DNA of 51,690 bases. Source: an uncultured Acidobacteriota bacterium (GTDB lineage Bacteria; Acidobacteriota; UBA6911; CAINFC01). Location of the stretch: NCBI GenBank assembly GCA_903847975.1, contig CAINFC010000244.1:1-51690 (forward strand), given 5' to 3'. Both the position numbers and the translations under genes were made by a program. Positions 16,181-48,121 of the stretch are shown piece by piece. Position 1 is the stretch's first letter. Every line of letters begins with the position of its first letter. The notes below the pieces were generated by a model. That model was not told the origin of the DNA. It did no database searches and saw only the letters and a list, made by a program, of their open reading frames with translations.

Positions 16181-17224
16181 TTACAGGTTGAGATTCTGTT
16201 TGGCGTAGGCGATGCACTGCCGGTTGTATTCGTCTTCCAGCTGGATGACCGCTTCCATGCTCAGGCCGGCGGTTTTGGGCAGCGGCTTTTTGGGCTTGTT
16301 CTGCCGGACCAGCGCCAGGACCTTGGCCAGGTCCTTTCCGGAAAGCGGGCTGACCGCATCGTCGAAGGTGGCCCAGTACTTGCCGGTGAAAACCGGAATC
16401 TTCAGCGGATCGCGGGTGATCATTTCCAGGTCGAAAATCATGTTGGGGTCCTTCTGCCGCAGCAGCTGCACCATCTGCTTTAGGTCCAGGAAGCCCTCGC
16501 CCATGGGCACTTCCGATAGCAGGAATCCGTCGGCATATTCCTCGACTGCCATGTCTTTGATATGGGCGAACACCGTGTACGGCAGCAGCGTGCGCAGTGT
16601 GTCCATGGGGTCTTCGCAGAGCGACAGGTTGTTGCCGAAATCGAAGCAGACGCCGACCCACTCGCTGCCGAGCTGCTTGAGCCAGGCGGCCTGTTCGCCG
16701 GAGCGGTATCCCTTGTGATTTTCCACGCCCAGCTTGATTTTCTGGCGGCGCAGGACCGGCTCGGCCAGGGCGATCGACTTCTTGATCCCTTCAAACATCT
16801 GCCGCCAGGGCTCCAGGGCGTCGAAGTCCTCGTAGCGTCGGCCGGTGAGGGCCACATGCAGGCAGGCAGCCCCGGCTTCCTTGAACGACTTGACGGCGTT
16901 CTCGAAGGCGGCGACATCCGATTCCTGCTTGGGCAGCCGCGGATCGCAGATGAGATGCATGCCGTAGCTTTCGATCCGCTGCCGGAATTTCCTGATTTCC
17001 TCGGGATCCATGGAGGGCGGGTTGGTCTGCACTCCGGCCAGGCCGATTTTGCGGCAGTGCTCCACGATATCGAAGGCCGGCCCGCCGCTGCGTGCCGGGC
17101 GAACGCGAGAGACGAAGGCCGTGGGAGCGCCGCCCATTTTAGGGGCCTCGGCGCCCGCGGAAAATGCCGTAGACCAGGCCGGAACAGCGCCGGCCATTGC
17201 CAGAACCTCTCTCCTTGATAGCAT
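16181..17224 (-). CDS. Tat-exported TIM-barrel sugar isomerase/epimerase
   Basis: AP-endonuclease-2-like (xylose-isomerase-like) TIM barrel of 347 residues. The N terminus SRREVLAMAGAV (3-14) followed by an Ala-rich stretch looks like a twin-arginine signal. Putative metal ligands are Glu168 (VENH), Asp195 (CFDFGN), His221 (AHIKD) and Glu267 (FDLEM), the usual E-D-H-E layout. Such enzymes isomerise or epimerise keto-sugars, including 3-keto-glycosides made by Gfo/Idh oxidoreductases, and a Tat-type Gfo/Idh gene begins this cluster. AGGA lies 8 nt upstream of the start. A possible internal promoter lies at 17268-17296. Confidence 0.8.
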   Translation of the reverse strand: MLSRREVLAMAGAVPAWSTAFSAGAEAPKMGGAPTAFVSRVRPARSGGPAFDIVEHCRKIGLAGVQTNPPSMDPEEIRKFRQRIESYGMHLICDPRLPKQESDVAAFENAVKSFKEAGAACLHVALTGRRYEDFDALEPWRQMFEGIKKSIALAEPVLRRQKIKLGVENHKGYRSGEQAAWLKQLGSEWVGVCFDFGNNLSLCEDPMDTLRTLLPYTVFAHIKDMAVEEYADGFLLSEVPMGEGFLDLKQMVQLLRQKDPNMIFDLEMITRDPLKIPVFTGKYWATFDDAVSPLSGKDLAKVLALVRQNKPKKPLPKTAGLSMEAVIQLEDEYNRQCIAYAKQNLNL

Positions 17225-17428: not shown

Positions 17429-20400
17429 TCAGAAGATGTACTTCAGAGCAAACTGCAACTGGCGCATCGAGGTAGCCGTGCTGCGGATCTGTCCGAAGGT
17501 AGCGGCCGGCGTCTGTGTGCTGCTCCCCCATACCAATGTAGGATTGCCAAGAACCGGATGATTGGGGAAGTTGAAGGCCTCGAAGCGGAACTGCAGCTTC
17601 TGCTCCTCGTGGATGGTGAAGTTCTTGATCGCCGAAAAATCCCAGCTGAACTGCGAGGGCCCGACCAGAGCATTCCGCGCCAGGTTGCCGAACTCTCCGG
17701 CATTGGTGTTGCGGAAGGCCTTGATGTTGAACCACTGATCGGGGCTGCGCTGCCCCTTGCCCAGGTAGGGATCGCCGCCGACGTAGACCAGGCGGTTCTC
17801 GCCGAAGAGGCCCTGTCCGGTTCCGTCCCAGCCGGTGGTCAGGTTGAGAGGCCGCCCGCTCTGGGCGGTGACGATCGAACCGACCTGCCAGCCGCCGATG
17901 ATCTGGTTGACCACCGCGCCGCCCGGTCCTCCCAGGTTGTTGGCCAGCTTCTTGCCCTTTCCGAAAGGCAGCTCGTACATCACGGAGGCCACGAAGCGGT
18001 GCGGGGTGTTGTAGGCCGAGTAGCTGTATTCGCAGCGCAGACAGAGGCTGTTTACGGGGTAGATATCGGTGCTGTTGCCGCGGATGGCGCTGACCGTATC
18101 CAGCCCCTTGGACCAGGTGTAGCTGACCAGGCTGGTGAATCCGGTCGCAAAGCGCTGGGTCAGCTTGATGCCCAGGCCATTGTAGCTTCCGAAACCGTTG
18201 CCCTGCACCACCTGGAGCCAGGAGAATTCCGGAAAGGCACGGCGGGTGGCGATGGTGGTGGTTCCCGGTACCGCCGGATTCATGTTCTGCAGGCCCTGCA
18301 GCTTTTTGTGCAGCGCGCCGCTGTAGCCGACTTCCAGCGCGGTGCTCTTGCCCAGGGTTCGCTGAACATTGAACAGGTACATGTAGGAGTAGCTGGTGCC
18401 GACATCCGGCGATACGCCCCAGAGGGAGGGAGTGGAGAGCTGGGTGGGCTTGGAGACTCCGCCCAGGAAGTTCTGGTAGTTGTAGGGAATGGTAACGGAC
18501 TGGGTCAGGGCCGTTTTTCCGGCGATGCCGCGGACCAGGTCGAAGCGGGAGTTGGCGCTTTCCGCGGAGTAGAAAATGCCGACGCCGGAGCGGAAGGACC
18601 ATTCCGCCGAAGGGCTGTAGGCGATCCCGATGCGCGGCGCCCAGTTGTTCCAGTCGTTGTTGATCATCCGGTCGCCCATCCGTCCGTCGCGGGCGGTCTT
18701 GACGCCGACATAGCGGAAATCCTTGCCGTCGTAAAAGTCGCCGTTGCCGGTGCGGATGAAGGTGGGATGCAGGTTCATATCGGCCACCGGCCCGGTGACC
18801 GGGTTGGGAAGGTAGGGGACATAGAGGTTGACCAGGTTGCTCAGCTCATCGCGGAAGGGCTGGAAAAACTCATAGCGCAGTCCCAGGTTTACCGTCAGCT
18901 TGGGGGTGATGCGCCAGGTGTCGTCCACGTAAGCCGCGAAGTTGCTGTTGCGGAAGTTGGAGGCCGCCAGGTTCAGCGAGACGTCGATGCGGTACATGTT
19001 TCCAAGCAGGAAGTCCGCGGCGGAAAAACCGCCGACGTTGGTGGCGCTGCCGCTGCTGCTCAAAGTCTGGGACCGGCTGTAGGAGCCGTCGTAGCCGAAC
19101 ACCGGCCGGCCGAACTCGTTGCCGATCTGGTCATAGATGTCGTAGCGGTATTCGCCGCCCATCTTGATGGAGTGCTTCCCCTTGATCCAGGAGAAGTTTT
19201 CCATGACCTGGAAGATCTTGTCCTGGATGCGGAAGGGGCCGTTGGTTCCGTTGCCGATGGAACCCTGCATGCCGATCATGTCGCGCATGGTGGGAATCCC
19301 CCAGGTGTCGGGATCGGGGTACTTCATGGGAATGCCGACGTCTTCCACCACGTTCTTGATCCCGCCTAGCTCCTGGCCGATGATGTTCTTGAACTGGTTC
19401 AGGCCGAAGCGCAGTTCGTTGACCTTGTTATTGGAGAGCACCCGGGTATTGGAGACCATCCACTGCTTGGCCACGGAATCGAGAATCGTTCCGGACTGCC
19501 GGATCCCGGGAGTCACCGTGGATTCGCTGGTCCAGCTGAAACGGCCGGCCCACTGGGAGCTGGTGCTTTCGTTGAAATCCACCCGCTGGGTGAACTGGTT
19601 CTTGTCGATGGTGTTTTTGAGCGGGGTTTCATAGTTGATCTTGCCCCAGGCCACGTTGGAAATATTCGGGACCGCCCAGTATTCCAGCAGCTTCACGGAA
19701 ACCGGGTCGAAGCGCGAAGTGGGGATTTTGTTGCCCGCGAACGGCTGGCGGACCACCAGCTTGTTCCCTCGCGAATCGACCGGGCAGGCCGGCTGGGTGC
19801 CGGTGCCGCAGACCGTCAGCGGATCATAGATCGGAATCATGTTGCCGGCGGTGTCCACCAGGCCGCTGAAATCGCCGCCGCGCATGGCATTGGTCGGAAA
19901 TACTCCGGTCGCCTGATTCGTCTGGCGCTGCTTGAATCCCTCGAAGTTGGACATGAAGAACAGGCGGTCCTTGCCGTTGAGGATCTTGGGGATCCAGACC
20001 GGGCCGCCGGCCGTGAACCCGTACTGGTTCCAGCGGAAGGGGGCCTTGGATGGCTTGGTTCCCAGGAAGTCGTAGGGCTTGGCGTCAAACTGGCTGTTGC
20101 GCATGAATTCGTAGACCGAGCCGTGGAAGGCGTTGGTGCCCGACTTGGTGGATACGTTGATCTGGCCGGCGCCGCGCCCGAACTCCGCGGAGTAGATGCC
20201 GGTCTGCACCTTGAACTCCTGCAGGGCGTCGACGGAGGGCAGCAGGATATACAGGTTGAAGTTGATGTCGGTGTTTTCAATCCCGTCCAGCGTGTAGTGG
20301 TTCCAGGTGCCGCGGATACCGGATACGGAAATGTTCTGGCTGGCGCGATGGCCGCCCTGCCGCCCGTCCGCCTGACCCGGCGTGCTGAAGCCGTAGCTGA

Positions 20401-20902
20401 CGTTGGGGCTCAGCGCCACCAGCTGCAGAAAGTTGCGGCCGTTCAGGGGCAGATCGACGATCCGCTTGTTTTCGATTACCGTGCCCACGGTGGCATCGGA
20501 AGTGGAGAGCAGCGGTGCGGCGCTGGTCACCTCCACGGTGTCGGTGCGCTGCCCGAGCTGCATGGCAAAGTCGATCCGCGCCGACTGCTGCACCTGCAGC
20601 TCGATGTTGTTGCGGACCACGGTCTGGAACCCGGTCATTTCCACCTTGACCGAGTAGGTTCCGGGAACCAGGTTCGGGAAGGTGTAAATGCCGGCTTCGT
20701 TGGTAGTGGTGATGCGGGCTGCGTTGGTGCCCATGTTTGTTGCGGTTACGGTGGCCCCCGGGATAATCGCCCCGGTCTGGTCTTTGGCTACGCCGGCAAT
20801 TTCGCCGAAGGTTTGGGCCAGGGCGGTTCCCGCCAGGCCGTACAAGAAAAACAGAACGAAAAGTCCCACGATCGGGACCCGATGCATAAAGCTCTTATTC
20901 AT
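17429..20902 (-). CDS. TonB-dependent receptor, Oar-like (2)
   Basis: Outer-membrane transporter of 1157 residues: signal peptide 1-30, CarboxypepD_reg-like domain about 31-115, plug with LPLNGRNFLQLVALSPNV and YTLDGIENTD type motifs, then a barrel ending ...LKYIF. CAGGAG lies 7 nt upstream of the chosen start at 20902; a longer frame to 21025 is unlikely. The gene follows the Gfo/Idh gene by 59 bp. It is closely similar along its plug region to the receptor at 24840-28328, and both sit next to a Tat-type Gfo/Idh gene, so the two pairs look like divergent paralogues. Confidence 0.92.
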   Translation of the reverse strand: MNKSFMHRVPIVGLFVLFFLYGLAGTALAQTFGEIAGVAKDQTGAIIPGATVTATNMGTNAARITTTNEAGIYTFPNLVPGTYSVKVEMTGFQTVVRNNIELQVQQSARIDFAMQLGQRTDTVEVTSAAPLLSTSDATVGTVIENKRIVDLPLNGRNFLQLVALSPNVSYGFSTPGQADGRQGGHRASQNISVSGIRGTWNHYTLDGIENTDINFNLYILLPSVDALQEFKVQTGIYSAEFGRGAGQINVSTKSGTNAFHGSVYEFMRNSQFDAKPYDFLGTKPSKAPFRWNQYGFTAGGPVWIPKILNGKDRLFFMSNFEGFKQRQTNQATGVFPTNAMRGGDFSGLVDTAGNMIPIYDPLTVCGTGTQPACPVDSRGNKLVVRQPFAGNKIPTSRFDPVSVKLLEYWAVPNISNVAWGKINYETPLKNTIDKNQFTQRVDFNESTSSQWAGRFSWTSESTVTPGIRQSGTILDSVAKQWMVSNTRVLSNNKVNELRFGLNQFKNIIGQELGGIKNVVEDVGIPMKYPDPDTWGIPTMRDMIGMQGSIGNGTNGPFRIQDKIFQVMENFSWIKGKHSIKMGGEYRYDIYDQIGNEFGRPVFGYDGSYSRSQTLSSSGSATNVGGFSAADFLLGNMYRIDVSLNLAASNFRNSNFAAYVDDTWRITPKLTVNLGLRYEFFQPFRDELSNLVNLYVPYLPNPVTGPVADMNLHPTFIRTGNGDFYDGKDFRYVGVKTARDGRMGDRMINNDWNNWAPRIGIAYSPSAEWSFRSGVGIFYSAESANSRFDLVRGIAGKTALTQSVTIPYNYQNFLGGVSKPTQLSTPSLWGVSPDVGTSYSYMYLFNVQRTLGKSTALEVGYSGALHKKLQGLQNMNPAVPGTTTIATRRAFPEFSWLQVVQGNGFGSYNGLGIKLTQRFATGFTSLVSYTWSKGLDTVSAIRGNSTDIYPVNSLCLRCEYSYSAYNTPHRFVASVMYELPFGKGKKLANNLGGPGGAVVNQIIGGWQVGSIVTAQSGRPLNLTTGWDGTGQGLFGENRLVYVGGDPYLGKGQRSPDQWFNIKAFRNTNAGEFGNLARNALVGPSQFSWDFSAIKNFTIHEEQKLQFRFEAFNFPNHPVLGNPTLVWGSSTQTPAATFGQIRSTATSMRQLQFALKYIF

Positions 20903-20961
20903 TAATTTACTCCTGAAATTCATGGGTTCGAAACAAATCCGGGCCGGAAAGAATCGGTGGA

Positions 20962-22401
20962 CTATGCTTTTCCGAGGGCGCTCTTCAGCGCGGCATCCCA
21001 CGGGGCGCGATACGGCTTGGTGCACATGGCGGCGGCTTCCTTGTCGCCGATCACCTGCTCCTTATCCGGATCCCAGCGGATCTGCCGGCCGCCAAGGCGC
21101 AGGGAGAGATTGGCCAGGTTGCAGCAGACCGCCACCCGGTGTCCTTCCTCGATCCCGCACAGCGGCTGCTGCCGGCTGCGGATGCAGTCGATCCAGTTGC
21201 GCTCGTTCATGGCCATGGTGTCTTCTCCCCCGGTGCCGTAGCGGGCGTCGGATTCCACGCCGCCCTTGGAGGCCTGAATCCAGGGTGTCGGCTGGGTGTC
21301 GGTGTACACCGGGCCGCCGACCGGATGGCCGGAAAATTTGGGGATATCGTTGACCGGGTCGATTTTGTTTTCGGGGACGACCTGGTAGCCGCCGGCCAGA
21401 ATCATGGTTCCCTTGGTGCCGAAGTAGGCCTGGCCGCGGGAGGCGGCATCGCCGCGCATGGCGTTGGCTTCGCGGATGGCGTAATTCATAATCCAGCCGC
21501 CCGGGAAGGTCCAGATGGCATCCTGCGTGTCCGGCACCTCCCCGTCGTCCTCCATGGCCAGTCGTCCGCCCATGGACACCACCGAGGTCGGCCCCTTGGC
21601 CTTCATTATATAAAGGACCTGGTCGATGGTGTGTGCGCCAAGGTTGGTCATCTGGCCTCCGGAGTAGTCCCAGAACCATCGGAAGTGGTACAGGGCCCGG
21701 TGGGCGGTATAGGGCTTTTTCTCCGCCGGGCCAAGCCACAGGTCGTAGTCGAGATCGGCGGGAGGCTGTGCGACCGGCGTTTTGCCGAATCCCGGGTATA
21801 TGTTCCGGTAGGAGGCGATTCGGATGGAGTGGATTTTGCCGAGGACGCCGCTTTCCACGACCTTCCTGGCCTCGCCCACCCCTTTGCCGTGGCGCCGCTG
21901 GGTGCCGACCACCACAATTCGGTTGTACTTTTGGGCGGCCTGCACCATCCATTTTCCTTCGTCGATGAAGATTGTCAATGGCTTTTCGACATATACATCC
22001 TTGCCTGCCTGGCAGGCCATGATGGTCATCAGGGCGTGCCAGTGGTCCGGGGTGGCCACCAGGATGCCCTGGATATCCTTGTTGTCATACATTTTGCGGA
22101 AGTCGCTATAGCCTTTAGCGGCCGGATTTCCGATCAGCGCCAGGCCTTCTTCCACGCGGGGCTTGTAGACATCGCAAAGCCCGACCAGGTTGACGTCTTC
22201 AAATTTTTTCAGATCGACGATGTGCTGCTTGCCGATCAGGCCGTAGCCGATCACACCGATATTGACCCGCTCATTGGCGCCAAGCACCCGCGAGTAGGAG
22301 GCGGCGGTCATGGCGGCCGCGCCGACTTCACGTAGAAAGATCCGCCGCGGAGTTTTCCTTTCCGGGGTAGATCCTGAAGGAGGGTTATATGAATCCTGCA
22401 T
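20962..22401 (-). CDS. Tat-exported Gfo/Idh/MocA oxidoreductase (1)
   Basis: NAD(P)-dependent sugar oxidoreductase of 479 residues. TPRRIFLREVGAAA (17-30) is a twin-arginine signal. The Rossmann motif GYGLIG is at 52-57 and the family EKP motif at 139-141, followed by the NLGAHTID helix that carries the likely catalytic His. Exported Gfo/Idh enzymes such as glucose-fructose oxidoreductase keep their cofactor bound, which fits folded export by Tat. AGGAAAGG precedes the ATG at 22401. It heads the minus-strand cluster and is followed by a TonB receptor. Likely role: oxidise an imported sugar or glycoside in the periplasm. The substrate is unknown. Confidence 0.88.
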   Translation of the reverse strand: MQDSYNPPSGSTPERKTPRRIFLREVGAAAMTAASYSRVLGANERVNIGVIGYGLIGKQHIVDLKKFEDVNLVGLCDVYKPRVEEGLALIGNPAAKGYSDFRKMYDNKDIQGILVATPDHWHALMTIMACQAGKDVYVEKPLTIFIDEGKWMVQAAQKYNRIVVVGTQRRHGKGVGEARKVVESGVLGKIHSIRIASYRNIYPGFGKTPVAQPPADLDYDLWLGPAEKKPYTAHRALYHFRWFWDYSGGQMTNLGAHTIDQVLYIMKAKGPTSVVSMGGRLAMEDDGEVPDTQDAIWTFPGGWIMNYAIREANAMRGDAASRGQAYFGTKGTMILAGGYQVVPENKIDPVNDIPKFSGHPVGGPVYTDTQPTPWIQASKGGVESDARYGTGGEDTMAMNERNWIDCIRSRQQPLCGIEEGHRVAVCCNLANLSLRLGGRQIRWDPDKEQVIGDKEAAAMCTKPYRAPWDAALKSALGKA

Positions 22402-23026: not shown

Positions 23027-24442
23027 TTGAAACGAAGGGATTTTTTAAAAAACACAGGTTCCGGGGTTGCCGCCTTTTCTGCAACCTCAATGCAAAAAGT
23101 AATCGGAGCCAACGACCGGTTGCGGATCGGCTTGATCGGCTGCGGCGGACGCGGCAGCTTAGACGCCCGGTTGATGCGCGGCACTGCCGAGGACATCCAG
23201 GCGGTGGCACCCGAATGCTTCCATGACGGCCAATTGGATCCCCGTCTGGCGGCACCGCGCAACCTGGACATCGCGGCGCTTTGCGACGTGTATGCCGCCC
23301 GGATCGAGGCCGCCAAGAGATGGGCCCCGGAGGCCAGGACGTACAGCGATTTCAGGAAGCTGCTGGATAGTAAGGAAATCGATGCGGTGATTATTGCCAC
23401 ACCGGATCCCTGGCATGCGCCGATGGCCATTCTGGCCTGCGATGCCGGCAAGGATGTTTACCTGGAAAAGCCGGTGTTCTATCGCATCGGCGAAGGCAAA
23501 GCCATGATCGATGCGGTCCGCCGCAACAAGCGCATTGTCCAGATCGGTACGCAACACCGTTCCGCGGAGCATATCGCCGAAGCGGCCAGGATGGTCCAGG
23601 GCGGCAGGATCGGAGAAGTCCGATTCGTTCGCGTCTGGAACTACATGAGCATCGCCTGGGGGAACGCCCCTCTCCCGGACAGCGAACCGCCCGCTGATTT
23701 GAACTGGGATGCCTGGCTGGGGCCCAGCCCGAAGGTGCCCTTCAACCGGAATCGTTTGAATTACCGGTCCTTTATGGATTACACCAACGGCATCATCAGC
23801 GATTACGGCAACCATCGTTTCGATTCCGTTCACCAGATCATGGGGGACGAAATCCCGCTCACGGTGGCCTCTTCGGCGCTGCGCTTCAACCAGAAGCTGG
23901 CGGGCGATATCTACGACATGCAAACCGCCACCTACGAGTACAGGAACTTCCTTCTCAGTTACGAGGCCTGCAATTACAACGGGCATGGATTGGGCGGCCG
24001 AACAGCGGGCATGCGCTATTATGGGATGCGCGGTCCGGAAGATCGTCCGCACGGCATGGCCTTCTACGGCACCGAGGCCGCCTTGTTCGTGGATCGTATC
24101 GGGATGGAGCTTTACCCGGAACCCAAGCCTCCCGCGCCGGGAAGCGGGCGAAGGGGATTTGCCTGGGAGCCCCGGATGGAGAAGTTCAAGATGAACGAGG
24201 ACGAACCGACTCCCATGCACACCCTGCATTTCGCCGAATGTGTACGTGCCCGAAAGGATCCCTTTCCGAACATCGAAACCGGAATCCGCGCCACTACGGT
24301 CGCCTGCCTCGGCAACATCTCCTATTGGACCGGGCGTAAGCTGAAGTGGGATGCCGGGCAGCTCACTATCCCGGGCGATGCGGAAGCCAATCGCTATCTG
24401 AACCGCCCGTACCGCAAGCCGTGGGACCTGGTGAAGCTCTGA
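23027..24442 (+). CDS. Tat-exported Gfo/Idh/MocA oxidoreductase (2), TTG start
   Basis: NAD(P)-dependent sugar oxidoreductase of 471 residues. The start codon is TTG at 23027, supported by GGAGGAG 6 nt upstream and by the fact that it yields a textbook twin-arginine start (KRRDFLK at 2-8). GCGGRG (38-43) is the nucleotide-binding turn, LEKPV (146-150) the family motif, and SDYGNHRFD (near 260) carries the likely catalytic His. It is only distantly similar to the divergent Gfo/Idh at 20962-22401 and therefore probably acts on a different sugar. A TonB receptor follows after about 400 bp. Confidence 0.88.
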   Translation: MKRRDFLKNTGSGVAAFSATSMQKVIGANDRLRIGLIGCGGRGSLDARLMRGTAEDIQAVAPECFHDGQLDPRLAAPRNLDIAALCDVYAARIEAAKRWAPEARTYSDFRKLLDSKEIDAVIIATPDPWHAPMAILACDAGKDVYLEKPVFYRIGEGKAMIDAVRRNKRIVQIGTQHRSAEHIAEAARMVQGGRIGEVRFVRVWNYMSIAWGNAPLPDSEPPADLNWDAWLGPSPKVPFNRNRLNYRSFMDYTNGIISDYGNHRFDSVHQIMGDEIPLTVASSALRFNQKLAGDIYDMQTATYEYRNFLLSYEACNYNGHGLGGRTAGMRYYGMRGPEDRPHGMAFYGTEAALFVDRIGMELYPEPKPPAPGSGRRGFAWEPRMEKFKMNEDEPTPMHTLHFAECVRARKDPFPNIETGIRATTVACLGNISYWTGRKLKWDAGQLTIPGDAEANRYLNRPYRKPWDLVKL

Positions 24443-24839
24443 CAGGAACTCACGGCTTTCCGAGGCCAACGGATTCCTGCAGGGGCGCGCGGCGCACGCC
24501 CCTGCCTTTCGACCCCACCCTGTTCGGGTTGCGCACACACACAAAACCTTGACAGATTCAGATCCCTTTGGGTATAGTCCGAAAATCAGCCTTGACGCTG
24601 GCGCACAAGGAGCGGGAATATTATCAAGGCGAAAGTAGGGCGGCCGGGAACGGACCATTCGTTGATCGCCCGGCCCCATCTGTCCATCAGTTAGCATACG
24701 AATTTATCGGCTTCCGTTTCGGTTCTTTCGCAATCCCCGCAGGGGACACAGACGCAGGGAACACCAGATTCCGCCCGGACGATTTCGAAACATCCTCCGG
24801 TTCTTCCAAAAGTAAAAACATCGAATGCGAGGTAAGGGA
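24443..24839. other. Intergenic region with palindrome and long leader
   Basis: A family B palindrome (arms 24479-24487/24497-24505) follows the Gfo/Idh gene and may end its transcript. A promoter-like site lies at 24549-24578. About 260 nt of leader remain before the receptor gene; I see no known riboswitch in it, and no gene. Confidence 0.55.
24549..24578 (+). promoter_or_regulatory. Sigma70-like promoter for TonB receptor 3
   Basis: Perfect TTGACA (24549-24554), 18-bp spacer, TATAGT (24573-24578). It would give a leader of about 255 nt before the ATG at 24840, long enough for post-transcriptional control. Confidence 0.5.
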
Positions 24840-27800
24840 ATGAGAAAAATCCAATGTGTATTTCTGCTTGCCGTAGCTCTTTGTTTGCCGGTGGCCGCCC
24901 AGACGCTCGGCGAGATTGTCGGTGCGGTTACCGACAGCACCGGAGCGGTGGTGGTCGGTGCGCCGGTCACCATCACCAACACCTCCACCAACGCGGTTCG
25001 TAATGCCGTGACCAACGACGCCGGCCTCTATACGGTGCCGGGGCTGGTGCCGGGGCCCTATTCGGTGAAGATCGAAATGGCGGGCTTCCGGGTCATGACC
25101 AGCAGCCTCACTGTCCAGGTGCAGCAGACCGCCCGCGTCGATTTCGTATTGCAGGTCGGCCAGGTCACCGAGACGGTCGAAGTCAATGCCAGCGGCCTGT
25201 CTCTGGCAACCGAAAACGCCACCGTCGGCACGGTCATCGAGGAGAAGCGCATTGCGGACCTGCCGCTGAACGGACGCAACTTCTTCAGCCTGGTCGCCCT
25301 GAGCCCCAACGTGACCTATGGGTTTACGCCTGCTGCGCAGGCCAGCGGTCGCCTGGGAGGCACGCGATCCAATATCACCATGGCCCTGTCGGGGAGCCGC
25401 TCGACCTGGCAGAACTACACCCTGGACGGCATCACCAACACCGACATCGACTTCAATACGTACATCCTGCAGCCCTCGGTGGATGCCCTGCAGGAATTCA
25501 AGGTGCAGACCGGAATTTATCCTGCGGAGTTCGGCCGGGCCGCCGGCCAGGTCAACGTTTCCACCAAACCAGGCACCAACGAATACCACGGCTCTCTGGT
25601 CGAATTTCTGCGCAACGATAAGCTGGATGCCAGAGATTACGATTGGTCCTCGGCCAGCCGCAGCCCCACCAATCCTTCTCCCGGTAAAGCCCCCTACCGG
25701 CAGAACCAGTACGGCTACACCGTGGGCGGACCGGTGCGGATCCCCTGGCTGTACAATGGAACCAACCGGCTGTTCTTCATGTCCAACTGGGAGGGATATA
25801 AGAGCCGCAGAACTACCATGCAGTATGCCACGGTTCTGACTCCGGAAATGCGCAACGGCGATTTTTCTTCCATTCTGCCTTCGTATAAACTGGCCGATCC
25901 GCTCACGCGCACCGGGACATTCCCGAATATCACCCAACAATGGTTCCCGAATAACGTGATCCCCGCCTCACGTATCGACGCCAGTTCTAAGCTGTTGGCC
26001 AGCCGGTGGATGCCGCTGCCAAATCTGACCACGACGCCAGGATCGCTTCCTTATCGGAATTATCAGTACGGGCGGAGCGAGCCGGTCGACAAAGACACCA
26101 TCACCGAGCGTATCGATTTTATCGAGAGTTCGAGCTCCCAATGGTTCGGCCGCTACAGCTGGAACGGCGAAACTTCTTTTGCCGCACTTCCCAGCATGGG
26201 GCTGGATGATGGAAATACGCTGAACACCAAGGCCAGCCAGATCGTGATCTCCAACGTCCGGACTCTTTCGGCCACCAAGGTGCTCGAATCGCGCTTCGGC
26301 TATAACTCGCTGTTCAACAATATCACCCAGCAGCTGGCCGGCAAAGAGGATGTGAATGCCCTCATCAAATCGCCCCTGAAGGTGGAAGATCCGAATTCCT
26401 GGGGCATACCCAACATCAACTTCCAGACCCAGAACCTGACCTCTTTCGGCAACCCGACCAGCAGCCCGTTCCAGATCGACAATAAGTACTTCCAGTTCGT
26501 GGAGAACTTCTCCTGGATCGTCGGCAAGCACTCGCTGCGCATGGGGGGCGAGTACCGCTACAACAAATTTCCGCAGGTCGGCAACGAATTCCCCCGCGGC
26601 CAGTTCTATTTCAACAACCGTTACACCAATACCATTACGCCCACGGGTCCCAACTCCGCTTCCGAGAGCGGCGGGTACGTGGGGGCGGACTTCCTCATGG
26701 GCTACACGAACAACGCGATTGCCGCCGTATCGCTGGTGCAGTCCGATTTCCGCAGCAGCGAATGGGCGCTCTATCTCGACGACTCCTGGCGGGTGAAGCC
26801 GCGACTGACCCTCAGTCTCGGACTGCGGTGGGAAGTCGCTCAGCCGATGTACGATGCCCTCGGTCGCATGCCGAATGTTCAACTCCATTCCTGGCTTCCC
26901 AACGTCGCCAACGTGCAGGATCAGAGCCAGCATCCGGTGTATGTCCGTTCCGGCAGCAGCGGCGATTTTTACGAGGGAATTGCCTTCCGGCTCGCTCCCT
27001 ATTATTCCACGCAGAGCGTGAAGCCGGTCGGGACTCTTTATCCGCTGCAGACGGTGCGCGACGGACGGATGGGCAAGCGGCTGATCGACACCAATTACGG
27101 CGATTTCGCGCCGCGCATCGGCATCGCCTGGAGCCCTACCGACAAGTGGGCGGTGCGCGCCGGCTTCGGCATCTTTTACTCCATGGAGAGCAAGAACTCC
27201 ATTTTCGATATGAGCCGTGGAATGGGCGGTCGTACCGGATCCGTGGCGCCGAATACCTACGGAATTCCGACAATCACCTACTCGAATTTTATCGATACCT
27301 CCAAGCTTCCGGTCACCTTGCCCACCGGACTCACCTGGGGCGCCAATCAGCACCTGCCCGACAGTTCCAGTATGACCTTTGTTCTGAATGTCCAGCGTAT
27401 GCTCGGCAAAGCGACAACGGTTGAGGTAGGCTACACCGGGTCGCTGCAGCGCCATCTGCAGTACCTGACCAATATGAATCAGGGGATTCTCCACCCCAGT
27501 TTGTCGGCGGTGCAACGATTGCCCTACCCGGAATGGGGCGCTTCGGGAATCCAGTTTCTGATGGCCGATGGTATGGGGAGTTATCATGGGTTGGCGGGTA
27601 AGCTGACCCAGCGTTTCGGAACCGATCTGAGCACCCTGTTCTCCTACACCTGGTCCAAAGCCCTGGACACGGCCAGCAACATCCGCGGGCCGGCAAACGA
27701 CTTCTCGCCCCAGGATGCCCGCTGCCCGCTTTCCTGTGAAAAAGGCCCTTCGGCTTTCAACGTTCCGCAACGGTTCGTGGCTTCCATCCTGTACACGCTA

Positions 27801-28328
27801 CCGCTGGGTAAAGGCCGGAGATTTCTCAATCATGGCGGCGTCCTCAATCAGCTGGTCGGCGGCTGGCAATTCAGCACCATCACCACGCTGCAAAGCGGCC
27901 GCCCGGTCAACGTCGGTTCGTGGGATTCCGGTGGTACCAATTTCATCACCAATGCCACCCGGCTCAACTGCAACGCCGGTGTGGATCCGGTTCTGCCCAA
28001 TCCCAGCCAGAACGGGTGGTTTAATCCGGCTGCCTTCTCCAACACGGTCGCCGGCACGTTCGGAAACTGCGGGCGCAACACCCTCCGGGGACCGTGGCGA
28101 GGGACGGAGGATGTTTCCATTGTTAAGATTTTCACGATTGCCGAAAAGAAGAGCATCGAATTCCGCACCGAGATGTTCAATGCTCCCAACCATGTGGTAT
28201 TGGACCCGGGGAATCAGTTGCAGTGGAACAACGGTTCGAGTGCCACGCCCAACGCCAATTTCGGTAAGATTACCGGGACCTGGACTCCCATGCGCCAGAT
28301 CCAGTTTGGTCTGAAGGTCAACTTTTGA
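24840..28328 (+). CDS. TonB-dependent receptor, Oar-like (3)
   Basis: Outer-membrane transporter of 1162 residues: signal peptide 1-21, CarboxypepD_reg-like domain about 22-105, plug with LPLNGRNFFSLVALSPNV and YTLDGITNTD motifs, barrel ending ...LKVNF. The start at 24840 has GAGG 7 nt upstream; the ATG at 24825 is less likely. The plug and early barrel (for example PSVDALQEFKVQTGIY) closely match receptor 2, which lies in mirror orientation. A strong hairpin terminator follows at 28345-28390. Cargo is presumably the glycan whose sugars the neighbouring Gfo/Idh enzymes oxidise. Confidence 0.92.
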   Translation: MRKIQCVFLLAVALCLPVAAQTLGEIVGAVTDSTGAVVVGAPVTITNTSTNAVRNAVTNDAGLYTVPGLVPGPYSVKIEMAGFRVMTSSLTVQVQQTARVDFVLQVGQVTETVEVNASGLSLATENATVGTVIEEKRIADLPLNGRNFFSLVALSPNVTYGFTPAAQASGRLGGTRSNITMALSGSRSTWQNYTLDGITNTDIDFNTYILQPSVDALQEFKVQTGIYPAEFGRAAGQVNVSTKPGTNEYHGSLVEFLRNDKLDARDYDWSSASRSPTNPSPGKAPYRQNQYGYTVGGPVRIPWLYNGTNRLFFMSNWEGYKSRRTTMQYATVLTPEMRNGDFSSILPSYKLADPLTRTGTFPNITQQWFPNNVIPASRIDASSKLLASRWMPLPNLTTTPGSLPYRNYQYGRSEPVDKDTITERIDFIESSSSQWFGRYSWNGETSFAALPSMGLDDGNTLNTKASQIVISNVRTLSATKVLESRFGYNSLFNNITQQLAGKEDVNALIKSPLKVEDPNSWGIPNINFQTQNLTSFGNPTSSPFQIDNKYFQFVENFSWIVGKHSLRMGGEYRYNKFPQVGNEFPRGQFYFNNRYTNTITPTGPNSASESGGYVGADFLMGYTNNAIAAVSLVQSDFRSSEWALYLDDSWRVKPRLTLSLGLRWEVAQPMYDALGRMPNVQLHSWLPNVANVQDQSQHPVYVRSGSSGDFYEGIAFRLAPYYSTQSVKPVGTLYPLQTVRDGRMGKRLIDTNYGDFAPRIGIAWSPTDKWAVRAGFGIFYSMESKNSIFDMSRGMGGRTGSVAPNTYGIPTITYSNFIDTSKLPVTLPTGLTWGANQHLPDSSSMTFVLNVQRMLGKATTVEVGYTGSLQRHLQYLTNMNQGILHPSLSAVQRLPYPEWGASGIQFLMADGMGSYHGLAGKLTQRFGTDLSTLFSYTWSKALDTASNIRGPANDFSPQDARCPLSCEKGPSAFNVPQRFVASILYTLPLGKGRRFLNHGGVLNQLVGGWQFSTITTLQSGRPVNVGSWDSGGTNFITNATRLNCNAGVDPVLPNPSQNGWFNPAAFSNTVAGTFGNCGRNTLRGPWRGTEDVSIVKIFTIAEKKSIEFRTEMFNAPNHVVLDPGNQLQWNNGSSATPNANFGKITGTWTPMRQIQFGLKVNF

Positions 28329-28344: not shown

Positions 28345-28390
28345 GGGCCGGCGCACTTTGGCTTCCGAAAGTGCGCCGGCCCCATTTCTT
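28345..28390 (+). terminator. Intrinsic terminator after TonB receptor 3
   Basis: A 15-bp perfect stem (28345-28359 with 28368-28382), an 8-nt loop and the tail CATTTCTTTT. It lies 17 bp after the stop codon and before the LarA-like gene, which therefore probably has its own promoter or relies on read-through. Confidence 0.75.
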
Positions 28391-28416: not shown

Positions 28417-29817
28417 ATGCATGATTCGAAGACAAAGGATGGAGCTGCCCTGCATCCGCGCAGGGCTTTTCTAAACCGGTTGGGTGCCGTCGGAGCCGTG
28501 CCGTTGATCGGCACCGCGACGGGGACCGCCATGCATCAGCCGACCGGCGTGCCTGCTTTAAAAGGGGCCACCCGATCGGTGATCGTTCCGACGCATGAAT
28601 TCGCCGGCGACCTGGATGAGCGGCTCGATTTTCCAGCGGACTGGGACATCCAGGTCATGAACATGGCCGGGCATGCGGCGCCGGTTCTGACCGCCGCGCA
28701 GATCGGGAATCGGCTCGATCAACCGATTGGAACCCGACGGCTGCGCGAAGTGGCCGAAGGAAAGAAAACCGTGGTGGTAACCTTCGACGATCTGACCCGC
28801 ACGACCCCCACCTACACGGTGACTCCCTGGATCGTACAGGAATTGCAATCGGCCGGCATCAAGGAAGAGAACATTCTCTTTCTGTCTTCCTACGGCACGC
28901 ATCGACCCATGACCGCCCTGGAAGTCCAGAAAAAGCTGGGGAGGGAAATTGCTCTCCGTTACGCCTGGATGAACCACAACGTTTTCGACAGTTTGAAGGA
29001 TGTCGGGGAAACGTCCTTCAGGAATCGCGTCCGGCTGAACCAGACATTTCTTGCCGCGGATCTGAAGATTTGTCTCAGCGGCATCAAGGTCCATCAGGAT
29101 GCAGGCTATGGCGGCGGCGCCAAGGCGATTCTGCCCGGGGTGGCGGGCCTTTCCACCATCGAATACAACCACCAGGTTATTCTGCGCCAGACCAGGACCG
29201 CCGGGCCGGTCCGGGTTTTCAAGAATGAAATGCGCCGCGACATGATCGAGGCGGCACGAATGGTCGGGGTCGATTTCACCGTGCAGATCCTCTACAACCA
29301 GAAGCTGCAGCCGACCCATATTTTCAGCGGCGATATCGTGGACGCCCACCATGCCGGCGTGCGGGTGGCGGCCAAACACTACTGCACTCCGACGGTCAAA
29401 GACGCCGATATTGTCGTGACCAACGGATACCCGCAGAACGCCCAGGCGTTCCACGCCCGGCGATGGATCCATTACTCCGTCCGGGAGGGAGGTACGGGGG
29501 TGTCGATCGTCCAGCACCCGCTGGCGCTGGACCCCATTCATTTTCTGAACAATCGCCTGGCCGGAATGGACGGGTCGACCTACTTCGACCTGACTTCCCG
29601 GAGATTAAACGGGAAAAATCCGAAAAATTCCGCCTTGATCGTCTTTTCGAAGTACACCGATCGATCGCAGATCAACAACTATCCGCGCGACACGGTATTC
29701 TGCGACCGATGGGAGGATGTCATCCGGAATCTTCAGAAGCGTCATCCGGGAACTCCCCGCGTGGCGGTCTATCCGTATGGCGGAATGCAGCACCAGGAGA
29801 TTGACCTGGACGAATAA
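28417..29817 (+). CDS. Tat-exported LarA-family (nickel-pincer) racemase/epimerase homologue
   Basis: Protein of 466 residues related to lactate racemase LarA. HPRRAFLNRLGAVGA (13-27) is a twin-arginine signal. Key residues line up with L. plantarum LarA in identity and spacing: Arg128 in DLTR (Arg75), His162 in GTHRPM (His108), His226 (His174), Lys236 in GGAK (Lys184, which binds the nickel-pincer nucleotide) and His252 (His200, nickel ligand); the 10- and 16-residue gaps are exact. So it probably binds the Ni-pincer cofactor and racemises or epimerises a 2-hydroxy acid or sugar acid, in the periplasm. No cofactor genes (larB, larC, larE) are in the window. The ribosome site is weak. Confidence 0.85.
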   Translation: MHDSKTKDGAALHPRRAFLNRLGAVGAVPLIGTATGTAMHQPTGVPALKGATRSVIVPTHEFAGDLDERLDFPADWDIQVMNMAGHAAPVLTAAQIGNRLDQPIGTRRLREVAEGKKTVVVTFDDLTRTTPTYTVTPWIVQELQSAGIKEENILFLSSYGTHRPMTALEVQKKLGREIALRYAWMNHNVFDSLKDVGETSFRNRVRLNQTFLAADLKICLSGIKVHQDAGYGGGAKAILPGVAGLSTIEYNHQVILRQTRTAGPVRVFKNEMRRDMIEAARMVGVDFTVQILYNQKLQPTHIFSGDIVDAHHAGVRVAAKHYCTPTVKDADIVVTNGYPQNAQAFHARRWIHYSVREGGTGVSIVQHPLALDPIHFLNNRLAGMDGSTYFDLTSRRLNGKNPKNSALIVFSKYTDRSQINNYPRDTVFCDRWEDVIRNLQKRHPGTPRVAVYPYGGMQHQEIDLDE

Positions 29818-29945: not shown

Positions 29946-30845
29946 TCAGTTTTTGGCGTCCCGCTTCACTTCGACCTGCGCCAGGCTTTCGTAGTAACGG
30001 ATCAGGCTGCCGTGGTCCGCTTCTCCCATACCGCCTACCTTCAGAGCCTGCATCATTTCCATGACAGCTGCGCTCAACGGCAGGGGTACCCCGATTTCGT
30101 GGGCGGTTTCCAGCACGTTGTTCAGGTCCTTGATGTGCAGGCGGATCCGGAAGCCGGGATCGAACTTGCGGTCCATGGCGAGGGGGGCCTTGGCATCCAG
30201 CACGGTGCTTCCCGCCAGCCCGCCGCGAATCGCCTGGTAAACCAGATCCGGCTCCACGCCGGCTTTGGTGGCCAGCACCAGGGCTTCGGACATGGCGGCG
30301 ATATTCAGGGCCACGATGATCTGGTTGGCCAGCTTGGCCACATTGCCGGCTCCCAGGGATCCCACGCGGACCACGGAGGCGGCCATGGCGCTGAGAACCG
30401 GCTTGACGCGATCGAAGATTTCCTGCTCGCCGCCGACCATGACCGCCAGGGTGGCGTTGATCGCCTTGGGCTCTCCGCCGCTCACCGGGGCATCCAGGAG
30501 GTGCACGCCCTTTTCCGCCAGGCGGGCGCCGATTTCCCGGCTGACCAGCGGAGCGATGGAGCTCATGTCGGCGATGATATCTCCGGGCTTGGCACCCTCG
30601 AGGATGCCATCGGGCCCGAGAATCACCTGCCGGACCTCCGGGCTGTTGGGCAGCATGGTGATGACCAGGTCGGATTGCGCGGCAACCTCTTTGGGATTGG
30701 CAGCCGTCCGGGCTCCGGCAGCGGCCAGCTCTGCGACCGCAGCCGCGTTGATATCGTAAACGATCAGGGAATGGCCGGCTTTAAGCAGATTCCTGCTCAT
30801 CGGCTTTCCCATGATTCCCAACCCGATAAAACCTATGGTTTTCAT
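29946..30845 (-). CDS. garR: 2-hydroxy-3-oxopropionate (tartronate semialdehyde) reductase
   Basis: Reduces tartronate semialdehyde to D-glycerate with NAD(P)H (299 residues), the last redox step of glucarate/galactarate and glyoxylate use. It shows GLGIMG at 8-13, DAPVSGG at 118-124 and catalytic Lys171 in GAGNVAKLAN. Similarity to enterobacterial GarR runs the whole length, including the AIRGGLAGSTVLDAKAP block. The start at 30845 has GGAGG 9 nt upstream; the frame stays open far upstream but that part is not coding. The gene is divergent from the DUF123 gene. Being cytosolic, it would finish sugar-acid breakdown begun by neighbouring exported enzymes. The partner aldolase (GarL type) is not in the window. 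Confidence 0.93.
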   Translation of the reverse strand: MKTIGFIGLGIMGKPMSRNLLKAGHSLIVYDINAAAVAELAAAGARTAANPKEVAAQSDLVITMLPNSPEVRQVILGPDGILEGAKPGDIIADMSSIAPLVSREIGARLAEKGVHLLDAPVSGGEPKAINATLAVMVGGEQEIFDRVKPVLSAMAASVVRVGSLGAGNVAKLANQIIVALNIAAMSEALVLATKAGVEPDLVYQAIRGGLAGSTVLDAKAPLAMDRKFDPGFRIRLHIKDLNNVLETAHEIGVPLPLSAAVMEMMQALKVGGMGEADHGSLIRYYESLAQVEVKRDAKN

Positions 30846-35921: not shown

Positions 35922-37163
35922 ATGAATACACCAGGAAACCGCCGACATTTTCTCTCCTCTCTTCTGGCCCTCCCTCTGGCCGGCCGCTATCAGGCTTTGG
36001 CTGCCCAGGCGCCCCCGATGAAAGTCACACGGATCGACAGCCTCTACTGGAATTCGCGGGATGACGCGCCCTTCTGGCCTCACTGGACCTGGCTGCGGCT
36101 GCATACCGACACCGGAATCACGGCCGTCGGCGAAACCTATCCGCGCGGCGAAGCGGAGGCGGCCATGATCCACACCCAGCTCTCGCGCCTGCTCCTGGGC
36201 CGCGACCCGCGGAACATCGAACGGCTCTGGTCCGACTTTTACCACACCATCGACTACCAGATTGCCGGCGGGACGGAAATGCGGGTGCTGAGCGCCTGCG
36301 ACCTGGCCCTGTGGGACCTGCTGGGCAAGTCGCTCAACGCTCCGGTCTATCAGCTGCTCGGCGGGAAAGCCAACCCGCGGGTCCGCCTGTACAACACCTG
36401 CTTCCCGCACCGGTACGATTTTCTCAAGGAGCCGGACCGGATCATGCGCGAGCTGATCGACCGCTACGGCATACGGGCCATTAAAATTTGGCCCTTCGAT
36501 CCGGCGGCACACTCCACCTCCCGCCAGTACATTACCAGCGAGCAGATAGAGACCGCGCTGTTTCCGGTGCGCCTGCTGCGGGAGAAGTTCGGAAAAGAGA
36601 TCGAAATTCTCATCGAGTTTCACAGCCTCTGGCCGCTGACCGCGGCGGTGCGCATCGCCAGGGCGCTGGAACCCTACCAGCCGATGTGGCTGGAGGATAT
36701 GCTGCTGCCGGGGCATTTTGCGCAGTACCGGCAGCTGGCGGAATCCACCTCGCTGCCGCTGACGGTCGGGGAGCGCATGGCCGGCAAGCTGCAGTTCCAG
36801 CAGCTGCTGGAAAGCCGGGCGGCCAAATTCATCATGTTCGACGTCTGCTGGTGCGGCGGAATCACCGAGGCCCGCAAGATCGCCGCCATGGCCGATTCCT
36901 ACCAGCTGCCGGTGGCCCCGCACACCGCCGGCGGCCCGCTGCTGTTTTACGCCTCCACCCATCTGACTGCCGCCAGCCCGAATGTGTGGATCCAGGAAAG
37001 CTGCCAGCGGTTCTACGAGAACGACTGGCCGCTCATGCTGGAAAACCCGCTCCTGCCACGGGACGGCTCGATTGCCGCCCCGGAAGGGCCGGGATTCGGC
37101 ATGCGGATCAAGCCGGAAATCTGGGAGCACCCCAAGGCCATTCGCCGCACCACGGCACTCTGA
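35922..37163 (+). CDS. Tat-exported enolase-superfamily acid-sugar dehydratase (GalD-like)
   Basis: Mandelate racemase/muconate lactonising enzyme family protein of 413 residues. GNRRHFLSSLLALPLAG (5-21) is a Tat-like signal. Proposed residues are Lys188 in IKIW, metal ligands Glu232 (IEFH), Glu258 (WLED) and Glu284 (GER), and His234 and His334 (APHTAGG). The E-F-H and late His positions follow the D-x-H and His pair of D-galactonate dehydratase (GalD), so an aldonate dehydratase is the best guess, giving a 2-keto-3-deoxy acid. The start at 35922 has CGGAGA 7 nt upstream; an open frame reaching 35721 crosses the repeat and is not coding. Export of such an enzyme is unusual. Confidence 0.82.
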   Translation: MNTPGNRRHFLSSLLALPLAGRYQALAAQAPPMKVTRIDSLYWNSRDDAPFWPHWTWLRLHTDTGITAVGETYPRGEAEAAMIHTQLSRLLLGRDPRNIERLWSDFYHTIDYQIAGGTEMRVLSACDLALWDLLGKSLNAPVYQLLGGKANPRVRLYNTCFPHRYDFLKEPDRIMRELIDRYGIRAIKIWPFDPAAHSTSRQYITSEQIETALFPVRLLREKFGKEIEILIEFHSLWPLTAAVRIARALEPYQPMWLEDMLLPGHFAQYRQLAESTSLPLTVGERMAGKLQFQQLLESRAAKFIMFDVCWCGGITEARKIAAMADSYQLPVAPHTAGGPLLFYASTHLTAASPNVWIQESCQRFYENDWPLMLENPLLPRDGSIAAPEGPGFGMRIKPEIWEHPKAIRRTTAL

Positions 37164-47002: not shown

Positions 47003-48121
47003 TCAGATCGCCGGGAATTCTCCTTTGACGGGAACATTCCGCTGCGGCGTGCAGGTGAATTTCTGGGGGCCGGGCAGAAAAGCCTCGCCAAGGTAGAGGT
47101 TGCCCTGCGCATCGGCGCATAGGCCGTGAAGCATGTTGAAACGGCCGGGGATGTGCCGTTCCGTCCGCGGGCAGGTGGGGAAGGACCAGAGCTGCAGGAT
47201 TTTTCCTTCGGCGCTGAACTTCACCGCGATCTGGTCCTGCTGCTGCCGGCCGTTGGTGATTTCCGTGTATTGATCCAGCCGGATCGGCGTGCACCCGCAG
47301 CTCCAGATGGCGTTCTGGCCGCAGGGGATCAGCGGCCAGGCGATCATCAGGTTTTGCCAGAGGTCCAGGAGCTTCCCCTCAAAATCGTAAACCTTGATAC
47401 GGACATTGCCGCGGTCGACAACGTACAGGTGCCGGCCCAGGTGGCAGATGGCGTGCGGATCGATGAAGTCCTCCGGCCCGGAGCCTTCCCGCCCCCATGC
47501 CCGGATGAATTTTCCTTCCGGCGAAAAATGCACAATGCGGCGGTTGCCGTATCCGTCGGAAACGAAGATGCCGGCCGGAGTGACGGTCATATCCGTGGGG
47601 CGGTTGAAATGCGCGGCATCCGCACCCGGCTTATCGGGCGTTCCGAGCGTCAGCAACACATTGCCGTCCGGATCGCATTTCTGGATCACGTGCCGGTTGG
47701 TGTTGGCGATCCAGACATTCCCTCGGTCATCGAAGCGGAAAAAGTGCAGGTTGTAGGGTCCTTTCTCGCGACTCTGAAAAAGCGCGGGCCCTTTTTCGGA
47801 GAACAGCTCCGGGCGGTCCCAGGCACGGATAAAATTGCCCTGGGCATCAAAAATCATCATGGCGGGGAAGGCGCGGTTCGAGACCCAGATCTGCTGCTTC
47901 GCGTCCACCATGAGAGCGGGATTTCCGGCCCAGGATCCCAGCGACTCCGGCTTTTTAGGCCAGGAGGGATCCGGGTCGTAGCGCACCAGCGGTGAGGCGG
48001 ATCCGACCGGTTCTGGAGCGGCTGCCGCTTCGACACGGCTGCCGGCTATGGCAAGACCGGCCAGGCTGCCGGTGGCCGTTTCGAGAAATTGCCGTCTGTG
48101 CTGCGATGGGGGGGTATTCAT
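47003..48121 (-). CDS. Tat-exported NHL-repeat propeller protein
   Basis: Protein of 372 residues. HRRQFLETATGSLAGLAIAG (8-27) is a twin-arginine signal. The rest is an NHL-type propeller with repeated blades such as NVWIANTNRHVIQKCDPDG, GIFVSDGYGNRRIVHFSPEG and YVVDRGNVRIKVYDFEG. Relatives include peptidyl-alpha-hydroxyglycine lyases and many periplasmic proteins of unknown role in acidobacteria. No enzyme motif can be assigned firmly. The gene starts 3 bp after the stop codon of the upstream amidohydrolase, with AAGGTGAG as ribosome site, so the two are translationally linked. Confidence 0.87.
   Translation of the reverse strand: MNTPPSQHRRQFLETATGSLAGLAIAGSRVEAAAAPEPVGSASPLVRYDPDPSWPKKPESLGSWAGNPALMVDAKQQIWVSNRAFPAMMIFDAQGNFIRAWDRPELFSEKGPALFQSREKGPYNLHFFRFDDRGNVWIANTNRHVIQKCDPDGNVLLTLGTPDKPGADAAHFNRPTDMTVTPAGIFVSDGYGNRRIVHFSPEGKFIRAWGREGSGPEDFIDPHAICHLGRHLYVVDRGNVRIKVYDFEGKLLDLWQNLMIAWPLIPCGQNAIWSCGCTPIRLDQYTEITNGRQQQDQIAVKFSAEGKILQLWSFPTCPRTERHIPGRFNMLHGLCADAQGNLYLGEAFLPGPQKFTCTPQRNVPVKGEFPAI

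Follow-up and report, generated by a model that had tools for sequence, protein, structure and literature searches.

The nickel-pincer nucleotide (NPN) enzymes closest to the protein described here are the lactate racemase LarA of Lactiplantibacillus plantarum (5huq) and the malate racemase Mar2/LarAH6 (6d6z), which share with it the fold, the Lys, His, and Arg residues that bind NPN, and two catalytic His residues. The broad-substrate LarA of Isosphaera pallida (9eia) belongs to the same superfamily and has the same fold (Z 26.6). To our knowledge, the NPN nickel cofactor is known only from inside the cell. The Tat pathway exports folded, cofactor-loaded proteins. The periplasmic glucose-fructose oxidoreductase of Zymomonas and other Tat-tagged Gfo/Idh/MocA proteins follow the logic that we propose below, that of a self-contained, cofactor-loaded redox enzyme of a sugar pathway that is exported in the folded state, although glucose-fructose oxidoreductase has a fold unrelated to that of the present protein and its cofactor is NADP, not NPN. 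Export of the NADP-loaded oxidoreductase, for which PMC7317946 cites Halbig et al. 1999, may serve as a precedent.

The gene of interest lies at positions 28417-29817 on the + strand of the window, by which we mean the whole stretch of DNA analyzed (51,690 nt, contig CAINFC010000244.1 of an uncultured Acidobacteriota bacterium, GCA_903847975.1). Profile, alignment, and fold match indicated that its 466-residue product is a protein of the LarA superfamily (NPN-dependent 2-hydroxyacid racemases/epimerases) with an N-terminal Tat-type signal. The protein is a true member of this superfamily, as a first-pass annotation had proposed: it matched Pfam Lar_N/DUF2088 with 1e-50 and 172 bits (cut-off 23.3) and has the LarA fold at residues ~52-466 (28570-29817, + strand), which aligned from residue 1-2 of the solved LarA and malate racemase chains. 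None of the curated LarA equivalogs of NCBIfam reached its cut-off with this protein. The nearest model was that of malate racemase LarAH6 (228.6 bits vs a cut-off of 500), the other scores being 198/540 for LarAH10, 185/460 for LarA, and 181/462 bits for LarAH5.

In a phmmer alignment to L. plantarum LarA (5huq), R128, H162, H226, K236, and H252 of the window protein corresponded to R75, H108, H174, K184, and H200, and D125 corresponded to D72. The first five of these matches, with the spacings of 10 and 16 residues, had been put forward in the first-pass annotation and were borne out. All six residues are unvaried throughout the alignment of a 14-member clade, which comprises the window protein, eight relatives with 62-71% identity, one with 48%, and four proteins obtained from a class-wide search. 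By alignment with LarA, K236 and R128 are predicted to serve NPN binding, H252 to ligate nickel, and H162 and H226 to be catalytic. The lactate-binding loop of LarA (Y294/Q295/K298) has no clear counterpart in the window protein, where the loop is three residues shorter and the placement of these residues differed between two alignments. Therefore, the pocket appears to be unlike that of lactate racemase. Q343 and W350 are invariant throughout the clade; the sequence alignments ended short of the substrate-specificity residues W358/T359 of LarA1.

The AlphaFold model of the full-length protein had a modest mean pLDDT of 67, being poor at residues 1-43 and near the NPN lysine, with some of the C-terminal half also weakly modeled. 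It matched the structures of LarA and malate racemase (Foldseek about 1e-22; VIA Z 26-28.5), the top match, with Z 28.5, being malate racemase. Residues 51-54 of the model superposed on residues 1-3 of solved LarA-type chains; in the case of 9eia, which has no N-terminal extension, residues 2-3 fell on residues 53-54. The first 50 residues are therefore an extension that is absent from the solved enzymes. Compared with 5huq and 6d6z, the window protein differs by this extra Tat-type signal of ~50 residues and by its substrate loop.

The extension (MHDSKTKDGAALHPRRAFLNRLGAVGAVPLIGTATGTAMHQ) includes a predicted Tat signal at residues 1-38 (28417-28530, + strand), with RR at residues 15-16 and a short h-region that contains PLIGTA. 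The N terminus, with its twin-arginine motif, reads MHDSKTKDGAALHPRRAFLNRLGAVGAVPLIGTATGTA followed by MHQ, and cleavage is likely to occur after A38, as judged by eye from the A-x-A rule. RR-x-[FLIV]-L was found close to the N terminus in all 14 clade members. Only M1, R15, R16, and L19 are invariant among residues 1-54 of the 14-member alignment, and the codons of both motif arginines vary synonymously among the members. Under our own signal rule, which combines the motif, an uncharged stretch (13 or more), and hydropathy, 13 of the 14 members qualified and the remaining one (L031) was one residue short; when these residues were shuffled, the full pattern arose in 0-0.16% of cases. Some relatives have a short h-region. 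The deep members (L011, L030, L031, and L032) differ in their hydrophobic regions and retain RRxFL or RRx[FL]L, L030 having a textbook Tat signal that ends with ARA ahead of A (SRRGFLSATLGTAVGGMALAGLPTARA followed by A). The Tat-signal HMM TIGR01409 matched four of ten relatives (loose threshold, best 0.031) and did not match the window protein alone; TIGR02811 matched two of ten (best 0.0099), the window protein again giving no match. Because TIGR01409 recognized so few members, the case for a signal is built on conservation and not on a predictor, and on that footing the Tat-type N terminus read at the first pass is upheld.

We considered the possibility that the protein is a cytosolic LarA enzyme, either because its N-terminal stretch is a vestigial or non-functional Tat-like sequence or because translation truly starts at Met39. 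Several points could be read in this way: the solved LarA proteins have no such extension, no strong ribosome-binding site precedes the ATG at 28417, which is the earliest start codon of the open frame, Met39 is in frame, and the window protein escapes the Tat HMMs. Yet, RR-x-x-L is preserved in 14/14 members despite synonymous codon changes, in most relatives a good ribosome-binding site lies directly 5' of the signal-including start, and none of them has a Met aligned with Met39. Met39 was rejected as the real start on these grounds, and we regard a cytosolic location as improbable.

In a tree of the mature part, a 100/99 branch set all 14 members apart from the other proteins, so that the Tat-tagged LarA clade is monophyletic. 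The five LarA proteins outside the clade, its nearest relatives in the tree (two from the same genome and three from the phylum), all lack a signal. The export tag of the clade suggests that nickel-pincer chemistry is not confined to the cytoplasm.

PLIGTA (28501-28518, residues 29-34) recurs in most of the clade, exactly in the window protein, L012, L015-L018, and L029, and as near variants in L013, L014, and L019; such conservation of an h-region is unusual for a signal peptide.

The first-pass annotation had named the absence of larBCE from the genome as an argument against its own reading. This does not apply, as larB and larC are adjacent in the window's genome and larE is also present, all above curated cut-offs. 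The genome also has tatC (TatC, 241 bits). By inspection, no export signals were found on LarB, LarC, or LarE; therefore, NPN loading must precede export, as Tat permits. LarC is encoded in 8 of the 9 other genomes that contain the clade, the exception being a 4.1 Mb assembly whose completeness is not established, and in L012 larC lies ~4.7 kb from the clade gene.

Alternatively, the LarA-like fold might have been repurposed, for instance as a binding protein, so that the product would be exported by Tat and yet have no NPN or no racemase activity. This would agree with the substrate-loop residues of lactate racemase not being clearly retained, with the lability of NPN in preparations (PMC11796402), and with the constraint that loading has to come before export. 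If the fold had been repurposed in this way, however, the NPN-binding and acid/base residues would hardly be expected to be invariant in the clade, as all of them are, and LarC to accompany it in nearly every genome. We consider a repurposed protein improbable as well.

Under our preferred reading, which we consider probable as a whole, Tat exports a holoenzyme already loaded with NPN in the cytosol, and this enzyme epimerizes a 2-hydroxy (sugar) acid in the periplasm; we infer the export, the loading, and the substrate. LarB, LarE, and LarC would load NPN onto the LarA-type enzyme in the cytosol, and the Tat translocon would then export the folded holoenzyme. In the periplasm, the enzyme would use hidden redox chemistry to invert a 2-hydroxy acid, most likely an aldonic or aldaric sugar acid, at its alpha-hydroxyl carbon: H162 and H226 would act as alternating acid and base to deprotonate and reprotonate the 2-hydroxyl, and NPN, tethered to K236 and with its nickel ligated by H252, would take up a hydride and return it to either face. 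These steps are drawn from the LarA family (PMC7583248, PMC12611868, and PMC11770544). As the reaction would be redox neutral and would need no diffusible co-substrate, it would be suited to the periplasm, like that of glucose-fructose oxidoreductase. Points that weigh against this reading are the missing TIGR01409 match of the window protein, the short h-region of some relatives, the unusual PLIGTA conservation, the altered substrate loop, the modest AlphaFold model, and, as described below, the variable gene context and the hairpin ahead of larA.

The theme of the neighborhood is extracytoplasmic carbohydrate use. A TonB-dependent outer-membrane receptor (OMP_b-brl_4 + CarboxypepD_reg) is encoded at 24825-28328 (+ strand), 88 bp upstream of larA, and another TonB receptor at 17429-21025. 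Tat-type signals were seen on two Gfo/Idh/MocA oxidoreductases (23027-24442, + strand, TTG start, LKRRDFLKNTGSG...; 20962-22401, - strand, TPRRIFLREVGAAA...), on a xylose-isomerase-like TIM barrel (16181-17224, - strand, MLSRREVLAMAGAVPAWSTAFSAGAEA), on an enolase-superfamily protein resembling sugar-acid dehydratases (35922-37163, + strand; best match galactonate dehydratase, below cut-off), and on a metabolic protein encoded at 47003-48121. With several tagged metabolic proteins in the window, Tat export of sugar enzymes looks habitual for this organism. A dehydrogenase of the 3-hydroxyisobutyrate/tartronate-semialdehyde reductase type (29946-30845, - strand) has no signal, and further neighbors in the window are an L-fucose-isomerase-like protein, a transaldolase-like protein, and an MFS sugar transporter.

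A strong hairpin resembling an intrinsic terminator (28345-28382, + strand; 15 bp stem, T-rich tail, z -5.0) separates larA from the TonB receptor gene upstream of it. Common transcription of the two genes is therefore not to be assumed, and the idea of an operon, weakened in this way, was set aside.

Among the relatives, TonB receptor genes adjoin L014 and L015 and lie near L040 and L043, Gfo/Idh/MocA genes adjoin L014 and L017, and genes for xylose-isomerase-like proteins adjoin L018, L041, and L043. GH10 is found beside L042, a 3-keto-disaccharide hydrolase beside L013, and metallo-beta-lactamase-fold proteins beside L016, L017, and L042. The context thus varies, and among the relatives' loci examined there was no single constant neighbor that would fix the substrate.

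From this neighborhood, a sugar acid is a plausible substrate and our best guess. The exported holoenzyme could instead act on a 2-hydroxy acid that is not a sugar acid (malate-, lactate-, or 2-hydroxyglutarate-like), an alternative that concerns the substrate only. The closest characterized group being the malate racemases (LarAH6, 229 bits) would fit with this, as would the gene for an FAD-linked oxidase that adjoins the relative L019. In contrast, the genes that dominate the neighborhood relate to carbohydrates (galactonate-dehydratase-like, xylose-isomerase-like, Gfo/Idh/MocA, GH10, and 3-keto-disaccharide hydrolase), and a non-sugar substrate seems to us possible, though on the unlikely side.

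A second NPN-family protein of the same genome, L005 (G000:C138:51815-52291, minus strand), also has a Tat-type start (SSRRAFAARAASSGALLALAGTHPAFA). It belongs to NPN isomerase group 22 of NCBIfam (NF052515; 519 bits, above cut-off), a distant group; the paralog L007 has no signal. A broader proposal, which we favor with some reserve, is that Tat exports every member of the monophyletic LarA group in the NPN-loaded state and that these proteins work as periplasmic hidden-redox sugar-acid epimerases, with group 22 in the same genome seemingly exported too.

The enzyme class is already known, and what would be new is an exported clade. In a literature search that had most subscription papers outside its reach, no paper tied lactate racemase, nickel-pincer enzymes, or DUF2088 to twin-arginine, the periplasm, or a signal peptide, respectively, and the LarA papers searched, including the superfamily studies of 2020 and 2024, make no mention of export, signal peptide, or periplasm. 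If the clade is exported, NPN chemistry would be placed outside the cytosol, a labile, lysine-tethered nickel cofactor would survive Tat transport, and one would have to ask how Tat quality control recognizes that NPN has been loaded. The clade also marks a LarA group beyond the curated equivalogs, with a clear search space for substrates (sugar acids).

Elsewhere in the genome, the locus L001, beside larC (G000:C208), encodes a Tat-tagged protein resembling sugar isomerases/epimerases (LSRRRFLSAAASVPFLAGSGEGKE). At L037:1084-1353 (G000:C22), the LarA-type gene of the window occurs a second time in degenerate form; this copy lacks roughly residues 44-123, ends near residue 182, and has kept the Tat-type N terminus (SETRRLFLGRPGTLGSVPLIGTALA).
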